DNA from: Dehalococcoidia bacterium
GTDB lineage: Bacteria > Chloroflexota > Dehalococcoidia > Lucifugimonadales > UBA3495
Assembly: GCA_022827095.1 (NCBI GenBank)
Contig: JAJDTP010000001.1
Coordinates: 1-64,000, forward strand
Length of the DNA: 64,000 bases
Reading direction: 5' to 3'
Part shown: in pieces, positions 16,485-50,766 of the stretch
Layout: each line of letters begins with the position of its first letter
How positions within the stretch are numbered: the stretch's first letter is position 1
The notes under the pieces: generated by a model
Seen by the model: the letters and a program-made list of their open reading frames with translations, nothing else
Databases searched by the model: none
Told to the model about the DNA's origin: nothing
Position numbers and translations under genes: made by a program

Positions 16485-16799
16485 CTCACGCCTGCCCAGT
16501 TTTGGCAAACCTGTCATTGCGAAGAGCGAAGCGACGCGGCAATCCCGTTGGCGTAGCGACGGTCCTGGCCGCAACGAGATTGCCACCCCCGCATCAAGTG
16601 CGGGGTCGCAATGACATAGGAGTTACGCACTTGAAACCACACGTCCGTCACTCCTGCGAAAGCAGGAGTCCAGTGTCCGAAATCGTTAACGGTATTCCAG
16701 ATTCGTTCACTATAAAGTCAATGGATTCCTGCTTGCGCAGGAATGACGGGTTTGTAATTTCGAGTGTGTGACTCCTATGACAAACCGGGTACTCGTGAG
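16485..16799. repeat. Composite repeat: family A element with nested family B element
   Basis: The outer part starts CTCACGCCTGCCCAGTTT and ends AAACCGGGTACTCGTGAG, the family A terminal repeats. Its core (16512-16616) is the CATTGCGAAGAGCGAAGCGACGCGGCAATC type. Inside sits element B (16617-16777), whose ends TAGGAGTTACGCACTT and GAGTGTGTGACTCCTA are inverted repeats. ATGACA is found on both sides of B. The same composite recurs at 26187-26463. It fills the gap between plsY and the PHP gene. Confidence 0.8.
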
Positions 16800-17757: not shown

Positions 17758-17893
17758 CTCACACGTACCCGGTTTGTCATGGTGAGGAACGCAGCGACGT
17801 GGCGATCTCGTTCCTGGGGCGGTGTCTGTGCCCTGACGAGATTGCCACGCTGCGCTCGCAATGACAGTTCCAGCGAAACTGGGTACGCGCGGG
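17758..17893. mobile_element. MITE-like family A element with 9-bp target duplication
   Basis: A 136-bp element with family A core, starting CTCACACGTACCCGG and ending GGGTACGCGCGGG. The 9-bp sequence ATGTTTTGT is found exactly on both sides (17749-17757 and 17894-17902), the mark of an insertion. It has no coding capacity. Confidence 0.85.
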
Positions 17894-21928: not shown

Positions 21929-22061
21929 CTCACGCGTACCCAGTTTGTCATCGCGTGGAGCGCAGCGACGCGGCGATCTCGTTCCTGCGGCGTCCGCTGC
22001 CCTAACGGGATTGCCACGCTTCGCTCGCAATGACAGGTTCCAGAAAGCGGGTACGCGTGAG
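21929..22061. repeat. Family A element with near-perfect terminal inverted repeats
   Basis: Left end CTCACGCGTACCCAGTTT and right end AGCGGGTACGCGTGAG match over 13 terminal bases. The core is family A. Flanking 9-mers (GCCTGCCGT and CCCTGTCGC) agree at 6 of 9 positions, perhaps a decayed target duplication. Confidence 0.75.
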
Positions 22062-31694: not shown

Positions 31695-31853
31695 GTAACT
31701 GTTCAGAATTCAGGAGGTTGCCATTGCGAGGCGCTTGCGCCGTGGCAATCTCGACGCCGTAGCAGCAACGTCTGCCCCAAAGGACTGCCCTGCGCCAACG
31801 GGATTGCCGCGCTGCGCTCGCAATGACACTTCCCGGCAACTCTGAACAGTTGC
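31695..31853. mobile_element. MITE-like family A element with different terminal repeats
   Basis: A 159-bp element. Left end GTAACTGTTCAGAATT and right end AACTCTGAACAGTTGC are inverted repeats (14 of 16). TATTGCAC is repeated exactly at 31687-31694 and 31854-31861. The core is family A. It lies between the divergent DinB-fusion and VLRF1 genes. Confidence 0.85.
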
Positions 31854-38003: not shown

Positions 38004-38033
38004 AACTCGGGCACAGACGTCCTCATCTTTTCT

Positions 38034-38186
38034 TTTACATCGATGGACAGGATGAACAGGATGCCGGCGATACCGTCGCGGCGTTCAGATCACAGCAGCG
38101 TCCCGGACGCCGGAACGCTGACAATAATCAATCAAATCCTGTCCATCCTGTGCATCCATGTAAAAGACAAAATGGGTAGGCGTGAG
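38034..38186. repeat. Family C element
   Basis: Arms CATCGATGGACAGGAT and ATCCTGTCCATCCTG form an inverted repeat around a GC-rich core (38066-38120), ending GGGTAGGCGTGAG. It is the opposite-strand copy of the element at 44927-45116. The end lies right before the ribosome site of the hydrolase gene. Confidence 0.75.
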
Positions 38187-40508: not shown

Positions 40509-40618
40509 GGTGCACCTGCATGTACGGGCCGGGTGGTCCGGTATCGGCGGCGCCAATGTACCACACTGCTGGGCCGGGGCGGGTTGGCGGCGCCGGCGTG
40601 ACGCAGTTTGTGGAGGAG

Positions 40619-40757
40619 AAACGTCAGAAGCAGGATTTTCAAGATTAGAGGATTATCAGGATTGGAATCGTTCCATGACTGAGCACCCTCAAGTCTGCCA
40701 AATCATGCAATCCTGTAAATCCTGCTGCTGACGATTTACGAAACTGGGTAGGCTGAG
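40619..40757. repeat. Family D palindromic repeat
   Basis: CGTCAGAAGCAGGATTTTCAAGATT on the left and AAATCCTGCTGCTGACG on the right form an inverted repeat; the right side ends GAAACTGGGTAGGCTGAG, the shared end motif. A small family B hairpin (GATTCCTGCTCGCGCAGGAAT) follows at 40761-40782. The gap 40509-40843 has nothing else. Confidence 0.75.
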
Positions 40758-44523: not shown

Positions 44524-44670
44524 ATGTTTTCCAGAGTGTTGACCAGGTTCCGAGCGGTTATCAGCCCTACGGCCGGAGGATTTGCGCTTTGGTTTTTTGC
44601 TCTCATTGTCCATGCCTGGAGCATGGCGGGCTGTGGCGGGCCCGGTGGCCGAGGAGACTACACCGGTTAG
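44524..44670 (+). pseudogene. Possible lipoprotein gene remnant
   Basis: Encodes MFSRVLTRFRAVIS, then a hydrophobic stretch and a lipobox-like WSMAGCGGPGG, and stops at TAG 44668-44670. The frame then stays open for 46 more codons, to a TAA just past 44808. This looks like the start of a lipoprotein cut by a stop codon, but it is too short to be sure. The region 44346-44926 holds nothing else except a small palindrome. Confidence 0.25.
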
Positions 44671-44886
44671 AGTGGCCGGCGGCAGTCCACTGCGAAGGCC
44701 GTTAGCGACTTGGATGCTGATGGGCTGGCCGTGAACGCTGGGAACCTGGTCGAAGGGTACGGATTTTTCGCCTGCGGATTCATGATAGCACGGGCGTTCT
44801 GCCGGGTGTAAGGGTGGGGGTGTCAGGGATTTCGGGGCCGACCTGGGGAAGCAAACAAGGAGGGACCGACGTCCGTGAGAGCGCGT

Positions 44887-44904: not shown

Positions 44905-44926
44905 CCACAATCAGGGGATCCACTTC

Positions 44927-45116
44927 CTCACGCGTACCCGCTTTAAACGGCGACCGGGGTAATTTTACATCGATACACAGGATGGACAGGATTTGATTGA
45001 TTATTGTCAGCCCCCCGGATGCCGGGACGCTGCTGTGAGCAGAACGCCGCGACGGTATCGCCAGCATCCTATTCATCCTGTCCATCGATGCAAAAGACAA
45101 AATCGGTACGCGTGAG
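44927..45116. mobile_element. MITE-like family C element with perfect ends and 9-bp target duplication
   Basis: A 190-bp element. It starts CTCACGCGTACC and ends GGTACGCGTGAG, a perfect 12-bp terminal inverted repeat. ATCCACTTC is repeated at 44918-44926 and 45117-45125. The right duplication overlaps the last codons of the NCS2 gene. The core is the family C type, with family C arms at 44960 and 45068. No coding capacity. Confidence 0.9.
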
Positions 45117-45123
45117 ATCCACT

Positions 45124-46857
45124 TCAGGCGGCCGAGACGCTGACGGTTACGACGTCCAGGCCGTGGTACTTCTGGTGGCGGACTGACGAGGCGTAGTGGT
45201 GGAGGAGGCGGAAGGAGACCTCGCCGTCGTCGGGAACCGGAGGAAGGGCGCTGAGGTAGGTGAGGCGATCCTCGACGTTTTCGCCGTCCAGGGTTGATGC
45301 GAATTCCAGCTCGATACCGTCGGACTCCTGGCGCGCTCGGACGGTGAGGTACCTGGGGGTTTCGGGATCGCCGGGATCCGCGCGGGACACGATGGCGAGG
45401 GTTTCCTCCGCCGCTGCGGTCACACGGTTGGTGTCCGCGGCGTTCCAGCCGAGACTTTCCGCAAAGCCACGCAGGACGTTGTCGACCTGCTGCGGGGCTT
45501 GTTCGTCCAGCTTCAGCCGGATGCGCCGCCGGTGCCCGCCAGTCAGCTCCATGGCCGCCGCGAGGAGCATCGCCACCAGGCCGCCGGCGGTCATGCCGTT
45601 GCCCAGCAGGACACTCCAGAAGCCGTCGCCCAGGAGATCGGGAAAGATCACTCCGTTTTGGAAGCCCACACCGACCCAGAAGGATAATCCGACGATCGCG
45701 GCCTTGCGGTGGTCGAGGCCGTCGCGCACGACGATGCGCATGCCCTGGACAAAGAGCAGGGCGATAAGGATGCCCACGTAAGCGGCAGCCACAGGCGAAG
45801 GGATGGCGATGAGGAGGGCCGTCGCCTTGGGGAAGAAAGCCAGGACGATGAAGATCACGCCAACCACGATGCCGACGCGGCGCGCGGCCATGCCGGTGAT
45901 TTCGACCAGGGGAATGGTGCCGGAGTAGGTGGTGTTGGGCAGGGTGCCGGCGATACCCGAGAGGAGATTGCCCAAGCCATCGGCGTTGAGTGCGCCCTGC
46001 ACCACTCGATAGTCGGTGGCGGTGGGACGGCGGCGGGAAACGCGCTGGATGGCCACGCCGTCGCCGATGGTCTCGATTGCGCCGACGATGGTCACGATGA
46101 TGAAGGCTGGCAGCAGTGCCCAGAATTGGTGGCCGGGAGTAAAGTCCAGGCCGGGCCAGGACCCGAGCTGAACACCGAACCAGGGGGCGTCGAGCACGAT
46201 TTGCGGGTCGTACAGGCCGAGAGGCGCGGCGACCGCGCAACCGACGACAATGCCGATGAGAGGGGCCCAGAGGCGCAGGGATTTCGGACCGCGGAGCACC
46301 AGCGCAAGGACGGCAACCAGAGTGATCGCGGCCACCACGGGACCGGCGAGATCCGACGTTGCTTCGGGCGCGTCGGTCAGCATGTCAAAGACGATGGGCA
46401 TGACGGTGGCGGCGATGAGCATGATCACCGTGCCGGTAACCACCGGGGTGAAGATGCGTCGCAGCGTGGGCAGGCCGGCGGCCAGCGCGAACTGGACCAG
46501 CGAGGAAACGACGATGAGGCTCGCCATGACCGCGGGTCCGGCCTGCAGCAAGGCCGCGGCGCAGATCGCGATGAATGTGCCCGAGGTGCCCATCACCAGG
46601 ACGTGGCCCGCGCCGAACCGCCAGAACCGCACGGCCTGCAGGATGGTGTTGGCGCCGCTGATCAGAAGCGCGGCGAAGACGCCCCAGGAGATGTAGTCGT
46701 CAGGCTGTCCCGCGATGCGGAACACGATGACGACAGTCAGGACGATACTGCCGATCATGACGAGTGCGCCCTGGAATCCGGCGCCGATCAGAAGGGACCG
46801 GGGTGGCTTTTCGTTGGGTTCGAAGCGAACGCTGTCGTTTATCGGTGATATATCCAT
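45124..46857 (-). CDS. NCS2-family permease fused to an RsbW-like ATPase-fold domain
   Basis: A 577-residue protein. Residues 1-450 are an NCS2 (xanthine/uracil-type) permease with 12-14 helices: FGAGHVLVMGTSGTFIA, GAIETIGDGVAIQRVSRR, and PNTTYSGTIPLVEITGMAARRVG. The remaining 125 residues (LDEQAPQQVDNVLRGFAESLGWNAADTNRVTAAAEETLAIV, ending SVRHQKYHGLDVVTVSV) have the helix-AAEETL-strand plan of anti-sigma-factor kinases (HATPase_c_2), with the E of AAEE where these proteins coordinate Mg-ATP. The glycine-rich lid is weak. A paralogue is at 47369. GAGG precedes ATG 46857. Substrate inferred as a purine or pyrimidine base. Confidence 0.8.
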   Translation of the reverse strand: MDISPINDSVRFEPNEKPPRSLLIGAGFQGALVMIGSIVLTVVIVFRIAGQPDDYISWGVFAALLISGANTILQAVRFWRFGAGHVLVMGTSGTFIAICAAALLQAGPAVMASLIVVSSLVQFALAAGLPTLRRIFTPVVTGTVIMLIAATVMPIVFDMLTDAPEATSDLAGPVVAAITLVAVLALVLRGPKSLRLWAPLIGIVVGCAVAAPLGLYDPQIVLDAPWFGVQLGSWPGLDFTPGHQFWALLPAFIIVTIVGAIETIGDGVAIQRVSRRRPTATDYRVVQGALNADGLGNLLSGIAGTLPNTTYSGTIPLVEITGMAARRVGIVVGVIFIVLAFFPKATALLIAIPSPVAAAYVGILIALLFVQGMRIVVRDGLDHRKAAIVGLSFWVGVGFQNGVIFPDLLGDGFWSVLLGNGMTAGGLVAMLLAAAMELTGGHRRRIRLKLDEQAPQQVDNVLRGFAESLGWNAADTNRVTAAAEETLAIVSRADPGDPETPRYLTVRARQESDGIELEFASTLDGENVEDRLTYLSALPPVPDDGEVSFRLLHHYASSVRHQKYHGLDVVTVSVSAA

Positions 46858-47368: not shown

Positions 47369-49108
47369 TCACGCGGCGCTGGCGACGCTGACGGTTACGA
47401 CGTCGAGGCCGTGGTATTTCTGGTGGCGGACGGAGGAGGCGTAGTGGCGCAGGAGGCGGAAGGAGACCTCGCCGTCGTCGGGGACCGGGGGCAGGGCGCT
47501 GAGGTAGGTGAGGTGGTCCTCGACGTTCGCGCCGTCCAGGGCGGAGATGAACTCCAGCTCCACGTTTCGGCCCTCGCGACGGGCGTTGATGGTGAGGCGC
47601 TTGGGCGCGTCTGACGTCTCCGGATCGTCGTCCTGGGCGAGGATGGTGAGGGTCTCCTCGCCGGCGGCGGCCAGACGGTCGGAGGCTTCCGAGTTCCACT
47701 GGATGCGCGAGGCGAAGGCGCGGAGGAAGTCGTCCACCTGCTGGGGGGCGTCGTCGTTCATGGGGACGCGGAGGCGGCGGCGACGGGGCTTGCTGAGCTC
47801 GACGAAGGCCATGAGCCCCACGGCGACGATGGCGCCGGAGGTCATGCCGTTGCCGAGCAGGACGCCGAGGAAGCCTTCGCCCAGGAGTTCGGGGAAAATG
47901 ACGCCGTTCTGGAACCCGACGCCGACCCAGAAGGCGATGCCGGCCACGGTGGCCTTGCGGTGGTCGAGTCCGTCCTGGACGATGATCCGCAAACCCTGGA
48001 CAAAGAGCAGGGCGATGAGGATGCCCACGTAGGCGGCAGCCACGGGCGATGGGATGGCGATGAGGAGAGCCGTCGCCTTGGGGAAGAAGGCCAGGATGAT
48101 GAAGATGACGCCGACCACGATGCCGACGCGACGGGCGGCGATGCCCGTAACCTCGGCCAGGGAAATGCTGGTGGAGTAAGTGGTGTTGGGCAGGGTGCCG
48201 GCGAGGCCGGACAGGAGGTTGCCCACGCCGTCGGTGTTGAGGGCGCCCTGAACGACCCGATAGTCGGTAGCCTGGGGCCGGCGTCGGGAAACGCGCTGGA
48301 TGGCGACGCCGTCGCCGATGGTCTCGATGGCGCCGACGAAGGTGACGACGATGAAGGCGGGCAGGAGGGCCCAGAACTCCACGCCGGGGGTGAAGTCGAA
48401 GCCGGGCCAGGCGCCGAAGGGCACGCCGAACCAGGGGGCGTCCTTGATGTACTGGACGTCGTACATGCCGAAGAAGGCGGAAACCGCGCAGCCGACGATG
48501 ATGCCAAAGACCGGGGACCAGAGCCGCAACGACGCCGGGGCGCGGAGGACGAGGAGGACGACAACCAGGATGGTGACTATCGCCACCAGCGGAGGAGCAA
48601 AGGTAGCGGTGCCCTCGGGGGCGTCGCTGAGCATGTCGAACACAATGGGCATGATGGTGGCGGCGATAAGCATGATCACGGTGCCGGAGACCACCGGGGT
48701 GAATATGCTGCGCAGCACGGAGAGTCGGGCGGCCAGGGCGAACTGGAACAGGGCCGATACGACGACGAGGCTGGCCATCAGGGCCGGGCCGCCCTGGATC
48801 AGCGCGGCGACACACACGGCGAAGAAGGCGCCTGAGGTGCCCATCATCAGGATATGTCCGGCGCCGATGCGCCAGAGGCGGGCGGACTGGAGGATGGTGG
48901 TGATGCCGCTGATGAGCAGGGCGGCGAAGACGCCCCAGGCGATGTAGTTCGCGGGCTGTTCCGCGATGCGGAAGACGATGACGACGCCCAGAACTATCCC
49001 GCCGATGATCAGCAGGGCGGCCTGGAAGCCGGCGCCGATGGTCAACAGGGCGGGAGGATGTTCGTCAGGTTCGTAACGAATGTGTTCATTCACTGGTGTT
49101 GCAGCCAA
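47369..49108 (-). CDS. Second NCS2 permease-ATPase-fold fusion
   Basis: A 579-residue tandem paralogue of the gene at 45124, similar along the whole length, including the C-terminal domain (NDDAPQQVDDFLRAFASRIQWN, AAGEETLTIL and YHGLDVVTVSV). Start is TTG 49108 with GGAG 8 nt upstream; the codons for VNEH contain a GTG but lack a ribosome site. The most conserved part is YLSALPPVPDDGEVSFRLL. Conservation of the tail in both copies argues for function. The two genes are separated by 511 bp of repeats, and each has its own end. Confidence 0.8.
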   Translation of the reverse strand: MAATPVNEHIRYEPDEHPPALLTIGAGFQAALLIIGGIVLGVVIVFRIAEQPANYIAWGVFAALLISGITTILQSARLWRIGAGHILMMGTSGAFFAVCVAALIQGGPALMASLVVVSALFQFALAARLSVLRSIFTPVVSGTVIMLIAATIMPIVFDMLSDAPEGTATFAPPLVAIVTILVVVLLVLRAPASLRLWSPVFGIIVGCAVSAFFGMYDVQYIKDAPWFGVPFGAWPGFDFTPGVEFWALLPAFIVVTFVGAIETIGDGVAIQRVSRRRPQATDYRVVQGALNTDGVGNLLSGLAGTLPNTTYSTSISLAEVTGIAARRVGIVVGVIFIILAFFPKATALLIAIPSPVAAAYVGILIALLFVQGLRIIVQDGLDHRKATVAGIAFWVGVGFQNGVIFPELLGEGFLGVLLGNGMTSGAIVAVGLMAFVELSKPRRRRLRVPMNDDAPQQVDDFLRAFASRIQWNSEASDRLAAAGEETLTILAQDDDPETSDAPKRLTINARREGRNVELEFISALDGANVEDHLTYLSALPPVPDDGEVSFRLLRHYASSVRHQKYHGLDVVTVSVASAA

Positions 49109-49271: not shown

Positions 49272-49515
49272 TTGGCATGGATGGACAGGATAGACGGGAT
49301 GGTATGAGTTGGATGATGGCAACCGGTCCGTCTTCGAAAACCATTCCATAGCCGTAAGCTGCATGTCCCTTTTCCGTCGCCTTGCCGCCATTGGAGTGCC
49401 GCTGCTGCCCGCCTCGACCCGGAACCACGATAGCAGCGCAGGGCATCAATTGAATCTTGTTCATCCCGTGCATCCATGCAAGTTGTTCCTCCGCTGTAAA
49501 GCGGGTACGCGTGAG
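49272..49515. repeat. Family C long element
   Basis: Arms at 49275 (GCATGGATGGACAGGATAGACGGGAT) and 49455 (CTTGTTCATCCCGTGCATCCATGC) bracket about 150 bp, ending GCGGGTACGCGTGAG at 49501-49515. The 49109-49560 gap has no gene. Confidence 0.7.
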
Positions 49516-50562: not shown

Positions 50563-50627
50563 GGAGGGAAGGGAACACGGCGGGGTGGACGATGTTCACC
50601 CCGCATACTAGGCTTGTGGCGGGGGAA

Positions 50628-50766
50628 CGTCAGAAGCAGGATTTTCAAGATTTGGGGATTATCAGGATTCGAACCGTTTTGTGATGGAGAACTCCCAATC
50701 CTGTCAAATCATGAAATCACGTCAATCCTGCTGCTGACGATTTTACGAAGGCGGGTACGCATGAGA
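50628..50766. repeat. Family D palindromic repeat
   Basis: CGTCAGAAGCAGGATTTTCAAGATT and CGTCAATCCTGCTGCTGACG arms, then the end motif GGCGGGTACGCATGAG at 50752-50766. It stands exactly where a toxin gene would be expected before the orphan antitoxin at 50772. Confidence 0.75.

Follow-up and report, generated by a model that had tools for sequence, protein, structure and literature searches.

A probable miniature transposon with IS4-family ends and varied palindromic cores in a sponge-associated SAR202 genus

The element behind the permease gene

The window, i.e., the whole stretch of 64,000 nucleotides that was analyzed, contains a short element directly behind a gene for an NCS2-family nucleobase permease. 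The features of this locus are:

44918-44926: left copy of the target duplication ATCCACTTC, 9 bp
44927-45116: the element, 190 bp; its 12-bp ends are perfect, as is the flanking 9-bp duplication ATCCACTTC
44927-44944, plus strand: left end CTCACGCGTACCCGCTTT, its first 13 bp identical to the insertion sequence (IS) end described below
44945-45098: core C1, a hairpin-forming dispersed repeat with arms at 44963-44992 and 45066-45095
45099-45116, minus strand: right end AAAATCGGTACGCGTGAG
45117-45125: right copy of the target duplication ATCCACTTC, 9 bp, its final 2 nt within the permease stop codon
45124-46857, minus strand: NCS2-family nucleobase permease gene, 577 aa, its stop codon abutting the insertion

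In agreement with the original prediction, the element is bounded by a perfect 12-bp terminal repeat, CTCACGCGTACC (44927-44938) being the exact reverse complement of GGTACGCGTGAG (45105-45116), and the duplicate is present on both sides. The right duplicate was also thought to cover the last codons of the permease gene, which has to be corrected. Because the permease reading frame spans 45124-46857 on the minus strand, the duplicate reaches just 2 nt into its TGA stop codon, and the gene remained intact upon insertion. The element itself contains neither a gene nor a transposase, and the window gave no match to Rfam.

Given that its strand folds much better than shuffled sequence (z = -6.8) and that a stop codon immediately precedes it, the element might be a hairpin that is kept there as a transcription terminator or mRNA stabilizer, with mobility being incidental. 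We consider this very improbable, since such a function is at odds with the target duplication and the high copy number reported below, no terminator-like site was found within the element, and the element is absent from this place in all 11 homologous NCS2 loci of relatives. Weighing these 11 loci, the terminator search, and the folding result, we rejected a fixed terminator at the permease. In two of the 11 genomes a family member does occur elsewhere downstream of the NCS2 homolog. The findings fit a lineage-specific insertion behind the permease, the noncoding flank being too diverged to show an exact empty site.

The permease gene is one of two NCS2 permease genes in tandem (45124-46857 and 47369-49108), each with an extra C-terminal part of ~140 aa beyond the permease match. 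Directly beside the element, at 44530-44820, lies a separate dispersed repeat, repeat E, of ~200-290 bp with the inverted repeat GACCAGGTTCCG and no Rfam match.

The element at 21929-22061 was rightly predicted to carry the same exact 12-bp ends around an unrelated core. This and the further family members in the window are:

16485-16799: probable member, 315 bp, with diverged ends and no clear duplication
17758-17893: core A member, 136 bp, each end with 2 mismatches over 18 bp, perfect 9-bp duplication ATGTTTTGT
21929-22061: core A member, 133 bp, with the same ends; duplication decayed, GCCTGCCGT / CCCTGTCGC, 6 of 9 positions matching
38025-38186: core C1 relic, right end with 1 mismatch, left end unrecognizable
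40594-40757 (approximate limits): core F relic, ends decayed
49275-49515 (left limit approximate): relic with a C2-like core, right end exact, left end unrecognizable
50600-50765 (left limit approximate): core F relic, right end with 1 mismatch

A genus-wide family and an insertion sequence with the same ends

The 12-mer end is present in 60 exact copies in the 3.79-Mb genome from which the window derives (G000). With up to one mismatch the whole genome contains 162 ends, compared to 26 matches of a reversed control pattern. Among 40 genomes, G000 and relatives, high copy numbers were found in one sponge-associated SAR202 (Dehalococcoidia) genus only: exact ends number 0 to 109 per genome within the genus and 0 or 1 in other genera. 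A scan of the named species collection for the pattern of both ends hit exclusively Chloroflexota MAGs, including several Dehalococcoidia and SAR202 cluster bacterium bin87, the latter being named in a sponge metagenome paper (PMC5649159). Core A elements with CTCACGCG ends were also found in a genome assigned to a different family within the phylum (L335, G116:C4) and on a 3.4-kb contig (L238, Plut_88905); they reflect either horizontal spread or a binning error.

In total, 147 elements were collected, four of which are full-length IS copies, while the remaining 143 are short, most of them 130-300 bp. Duplications were analyzed in 128 short elements that had been picked without regard to this feature. 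Allowing one mismatch at most, 57 of them are flanked by a duplication of 9 bp (22 elements) or 10 bp (35 elements), compared to a rate of ~0.0002 if flanks of different elements were paired at random. About half of the elements lack a clear duplication, which we take as a sign of age.

The full-length insertion sequence with these ends and a transposase gene that had been looked for was found in the sister genome G011. There, three pairs of exact ends, each 1181 bp apart, enclose three identical copies, flanked by perfect duplications of 9, 9, and 10 bp (CATATTGACG, ATCCTCACG, and CCCGCAACC). A single uninterrupted reading frame encodes a transposase of 360 aa, which scores above the cut-offs of NCBIfam NF033591 (157.2 bits, cut-off 152) and PF01609 (46.7 bits, cut-off 23) and displays the YREK signature Y-(2)-R-(3)-E-(6)-K (YRKRMQPEQYFRDGK at residue 264). 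The signature and duplications of ~10 bp are hallmarks of the IS4 family, and duplication length and CT ends are as in IS4 subgroups (PMC2266710). Judged by its sequence, the IS belongs to the IS4 family. With YREK, CT ends, duplications of ~9 bp, and a size near 1200 bp it resembles the IS10-like IS4 elements (Table 1 in PMC2266710). However, it is slightly shorter (1181 bp), its duplications measure 9 or 10 bp, and its best plasmid relatives, annotated as IS4-like ISTth2, show 35% identity. A phmmer comparison against solved structures revealed no significant relative. In one locus of G011 (L270, 3251-3281) the IS4-family transposase gene terminates inside the right end of the IS, with GGTACGCG-TGA-G containing its stop codon.

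The IS and the short elements have the end consensus CTCACGCGTACCC[AG][GC]TTT in common, and over both ends conservation drops after position 18-19. The ends might have been merely part of a longer common repeat, but the shared sequence stops at ~18 bp. The short elements combine traits of a MITE: they lack a transposase, share terminal inverted repeats with an IS, have target duplications, and occur in multiple copies. MITEs classically, though not necessarily, arise when the interior of an IS is partly deleted. Among the short elements, only L159 and L275 are such true internal-deletion derivatives of the IS. From this evidence we conclude that the element behind the permease is very probably a non-autonomous miniature transposon whose ~18-bp ends are those of the 1181-bp IS4-family IS of the same genus.

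Palindromic and dispersed cores also call to mind REP/REPIN-type sequences moved by a RAYT (Y1) transposase, with the CTCACGCG ends as their outer part. Such an origin of the ends is hardly credible, as it is contradicted by the lack of any Y1_Tnp (PF01797) match in G000, by the 9-10-bp duplications, and by the identical ends of an IS4-family IS.

Full-length transposases, 90% identical, are encoded in G005 and G013, whereas none was detectable in G000, G004, G006, and others. Because no transposase gene was found in the genome of the window, the donor IS is seen only in sister species, and present mobility in G000 is consequently doubtful. The enzyme would have been lost there or missed in the assembly, so its copies are now probably stranded. 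The IS apparently persists for less time than the short copies, although one has to bear in mind that repeats tend to drop out of metagenome assemblies. As to the DDE_Tnp_1 genes of G000, the sole one between CTCACGCG ends is an IS1182-family gene, which we did not take as the mover because it has its own inverted repeats and is nested in a 2588-bp element.

Cores and ends in changing combinations

The original prediction proposed that the same ends enclose different cores. Indeed, at least five unrelated kinds were found between the IS4 ends, most of them palindromic dispersed repeats. Core A makes up about 100 of the 143 short elements, mostly 133-138 bp long, while cores C1 and C2 occur in elements of 136-256 bp and core F in elements of ~167 bp. 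G009 holds a further core with TTTAACGCAAAGACGC-type repeats, and composites with D and E exist as well. A search with the A element and one with the C element cross-match at the ends only. Together with the IS that has the same ends, the five or more kinds of core support the idea that one enzyme moves several of them, presumably acting in trans.

The cores also lead a life outside these ends. Core A was found without IS4 ends at 33 places among the loci examined, some with other end types, and a sample of 150 further genomes from the whole phylum contains it in 15 cases. Repeat E has >20 copies in G007, a genome with no exact CTCACGCG end. The ends CAGGGCCTTTTCAAAGT enclose core A, core D, and a further repeat, and in most of these elements the 9-bp duplication is perfect. 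These ends point to a second IS family: G000 contains a 1197-bp IS with CAGGGCCTTTTCAAAGT ends and a frameshifted transposase, both parts of which exceed the NCBIfam ISAs1 cut-off, and core A and core D are thus found between ends of the ISAs1 family, the 9-bp duplications being perfect. A third end type, AACTGTTCAGA...TCTGAACAGTT, encloses core A at 31697-31851 of the window and also in L217, L258, and L079. Because of the ISAs1-type and third-type ends, one core goes with several end pairs, just as one end pair goes with many cores.

Among the CTCACGCG copies one core A layout dominates, a core of ~91 bp with linkers of 5 bp and 14-15 bp, which suggests that independent captures were few. 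A core A tree compared with end type was poorly resolved (91 columns, one starred branch).

Such a pattern would arise if the IS4 transposase recognized the ends only and cut and pasted the element in trans. The interior would then be free to vary. Each combination of ends and core could have come about when a palindromic repeat that was already dispersed ended up between IS ends, followed by amplification. Two routes can be envisioned: abortive repair after IS excision might copy a repeat as filler, or a repeat might insert into a short end pair.

Alternatively, the cores might be mobile themselves and have been inserted into pre-existing short IS4-end elements, which were amplified afterwards. 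This would leave the classification as IS4-driven unchanged and alter only the origin of the cores. Nesting is indeed common: in L213 an ISAs1-ended core A element lies within a CTCACGCG right end, with the duplication ACTGGGTAC, and an IS1182-family IS and a VapBC-like gene pair lie within the 2588-bp element. However, the borders of free core A, inspected by eye, lack a consistent duplication, and none of the 147 elements is a core-free end pair, the shortest one (77 bp) comprising a shortened core A. Thus, nested insertion appears as a possible yet rather doubtful source of the cores.

Target choice, chains, and known systems

Pooled insertion sites revealed a symmetric preference, CAANNN-[9-10 bp]-NNNTTG. 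Where neighboring ends are <60 bp apart, 7 of 11 pairs are separated by exactly 9 or 10 bp. In L064, L224, L241, L288, L292, L252, and L217 neighbors are spaced by exactly 9 or 10 bp, i.e., by one target duplication, and in L064 and L224 this duplication is present three times. The element end (CGTGAG or CTCACG) supplies a C or G whose spacing from the duplication suits the motif. Although this pattern was recognized only post hoc, we infer from it that every insertion restores a site suitable for the next one, and the chains could be accounted for in this way.

On a broader scale, one might speculate that widespread palindromic repeats of bacteria owe part of their dispersal to successive capture by the ends of whichever IS is active in the host. 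One repeat would ride several transposase families, here IS4 and ISAs1, and an end pair would act as a vehicle with changing cargo. Insertions would partly regenerate CAANNN-N9/10-NNNTTG, so that new elements land 9-10 bp from old ones and form chains. We put this forward tentatively, as a possibility that falls somewhat short of even chances. To our knowledge, the dispersed palindromic repeats like core A that occur in many bacteria have no identified mover. Since two IS families here have the same repeats between their ends and intact IS copies occur alongside, it can be tested directly whether IS transposases spread them, and with transposase, end sequence, and target motif now in hand, the system is ready for assays. 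Moreover, the genus offers a view of how new non-autonomous elements arise.

Our search for SAR202 mobile elements, chimeric MITEs, and the core A sequence, in a literature sample that covered few subscription journals, returned no description of this system, nor of gene-less palindromic cores common to different IS families. Prokaryotic MITEs are short, lack a transposase, and have terminal inverted repeats, target duplications, many copies, and strong secondary structure (PMC10969869), all of which applies here. However, the usual explanation for MITEs is the decay of copies of a single IS (PMC10969869), whereas the interiors described here, save those of L159 and L275, are not IS-derived, and the same end pair is found with several unrelated interiors. 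The Tn3-derived TIMEs likewise show conserved ends, variable cores, and larger composites, but their ends are the 38-bp ends of the Tn3 family, they are mostly single copy, and their composites consist of two whole elements around genes (PMC4133298).

By analogy, the nearest precedent for modular IS4-ended elements would be the IS231-MIC231 cassettes. These cassettes of Bacillus cereus, reportedly described in Mol Microbiol in 1999 and 2004, are said to be modular, with IS4-family ends around different interiors, and to be moved in trans by the IS transposase; genes are reportedly their cargo, and they are assigned to the IS231 subgroup. The likeness lies in IS4-family ends around differing interiors, and as in a MIC, a passenger unrelated to the IS lies between IS ends. 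Unlike MIC231, the elements here mostly have gene-less palindromic repeats as cores and reach >100 copies per genome, some cores being common to another IS family; the gene that a MIC has as its passenger is missing from the element in the window.

One member does enclose genes. The 2588-bp element of L133 (2170-4757; G000:C21:109169-111756), with the perfect duplication AATGCATCG, contains core C1 in addition to the IS1182-family IS and the VapBC-like pair. An 18-bp inverted repeat of its own surrounds the latter, which possibly came to lie inside through later nesting.
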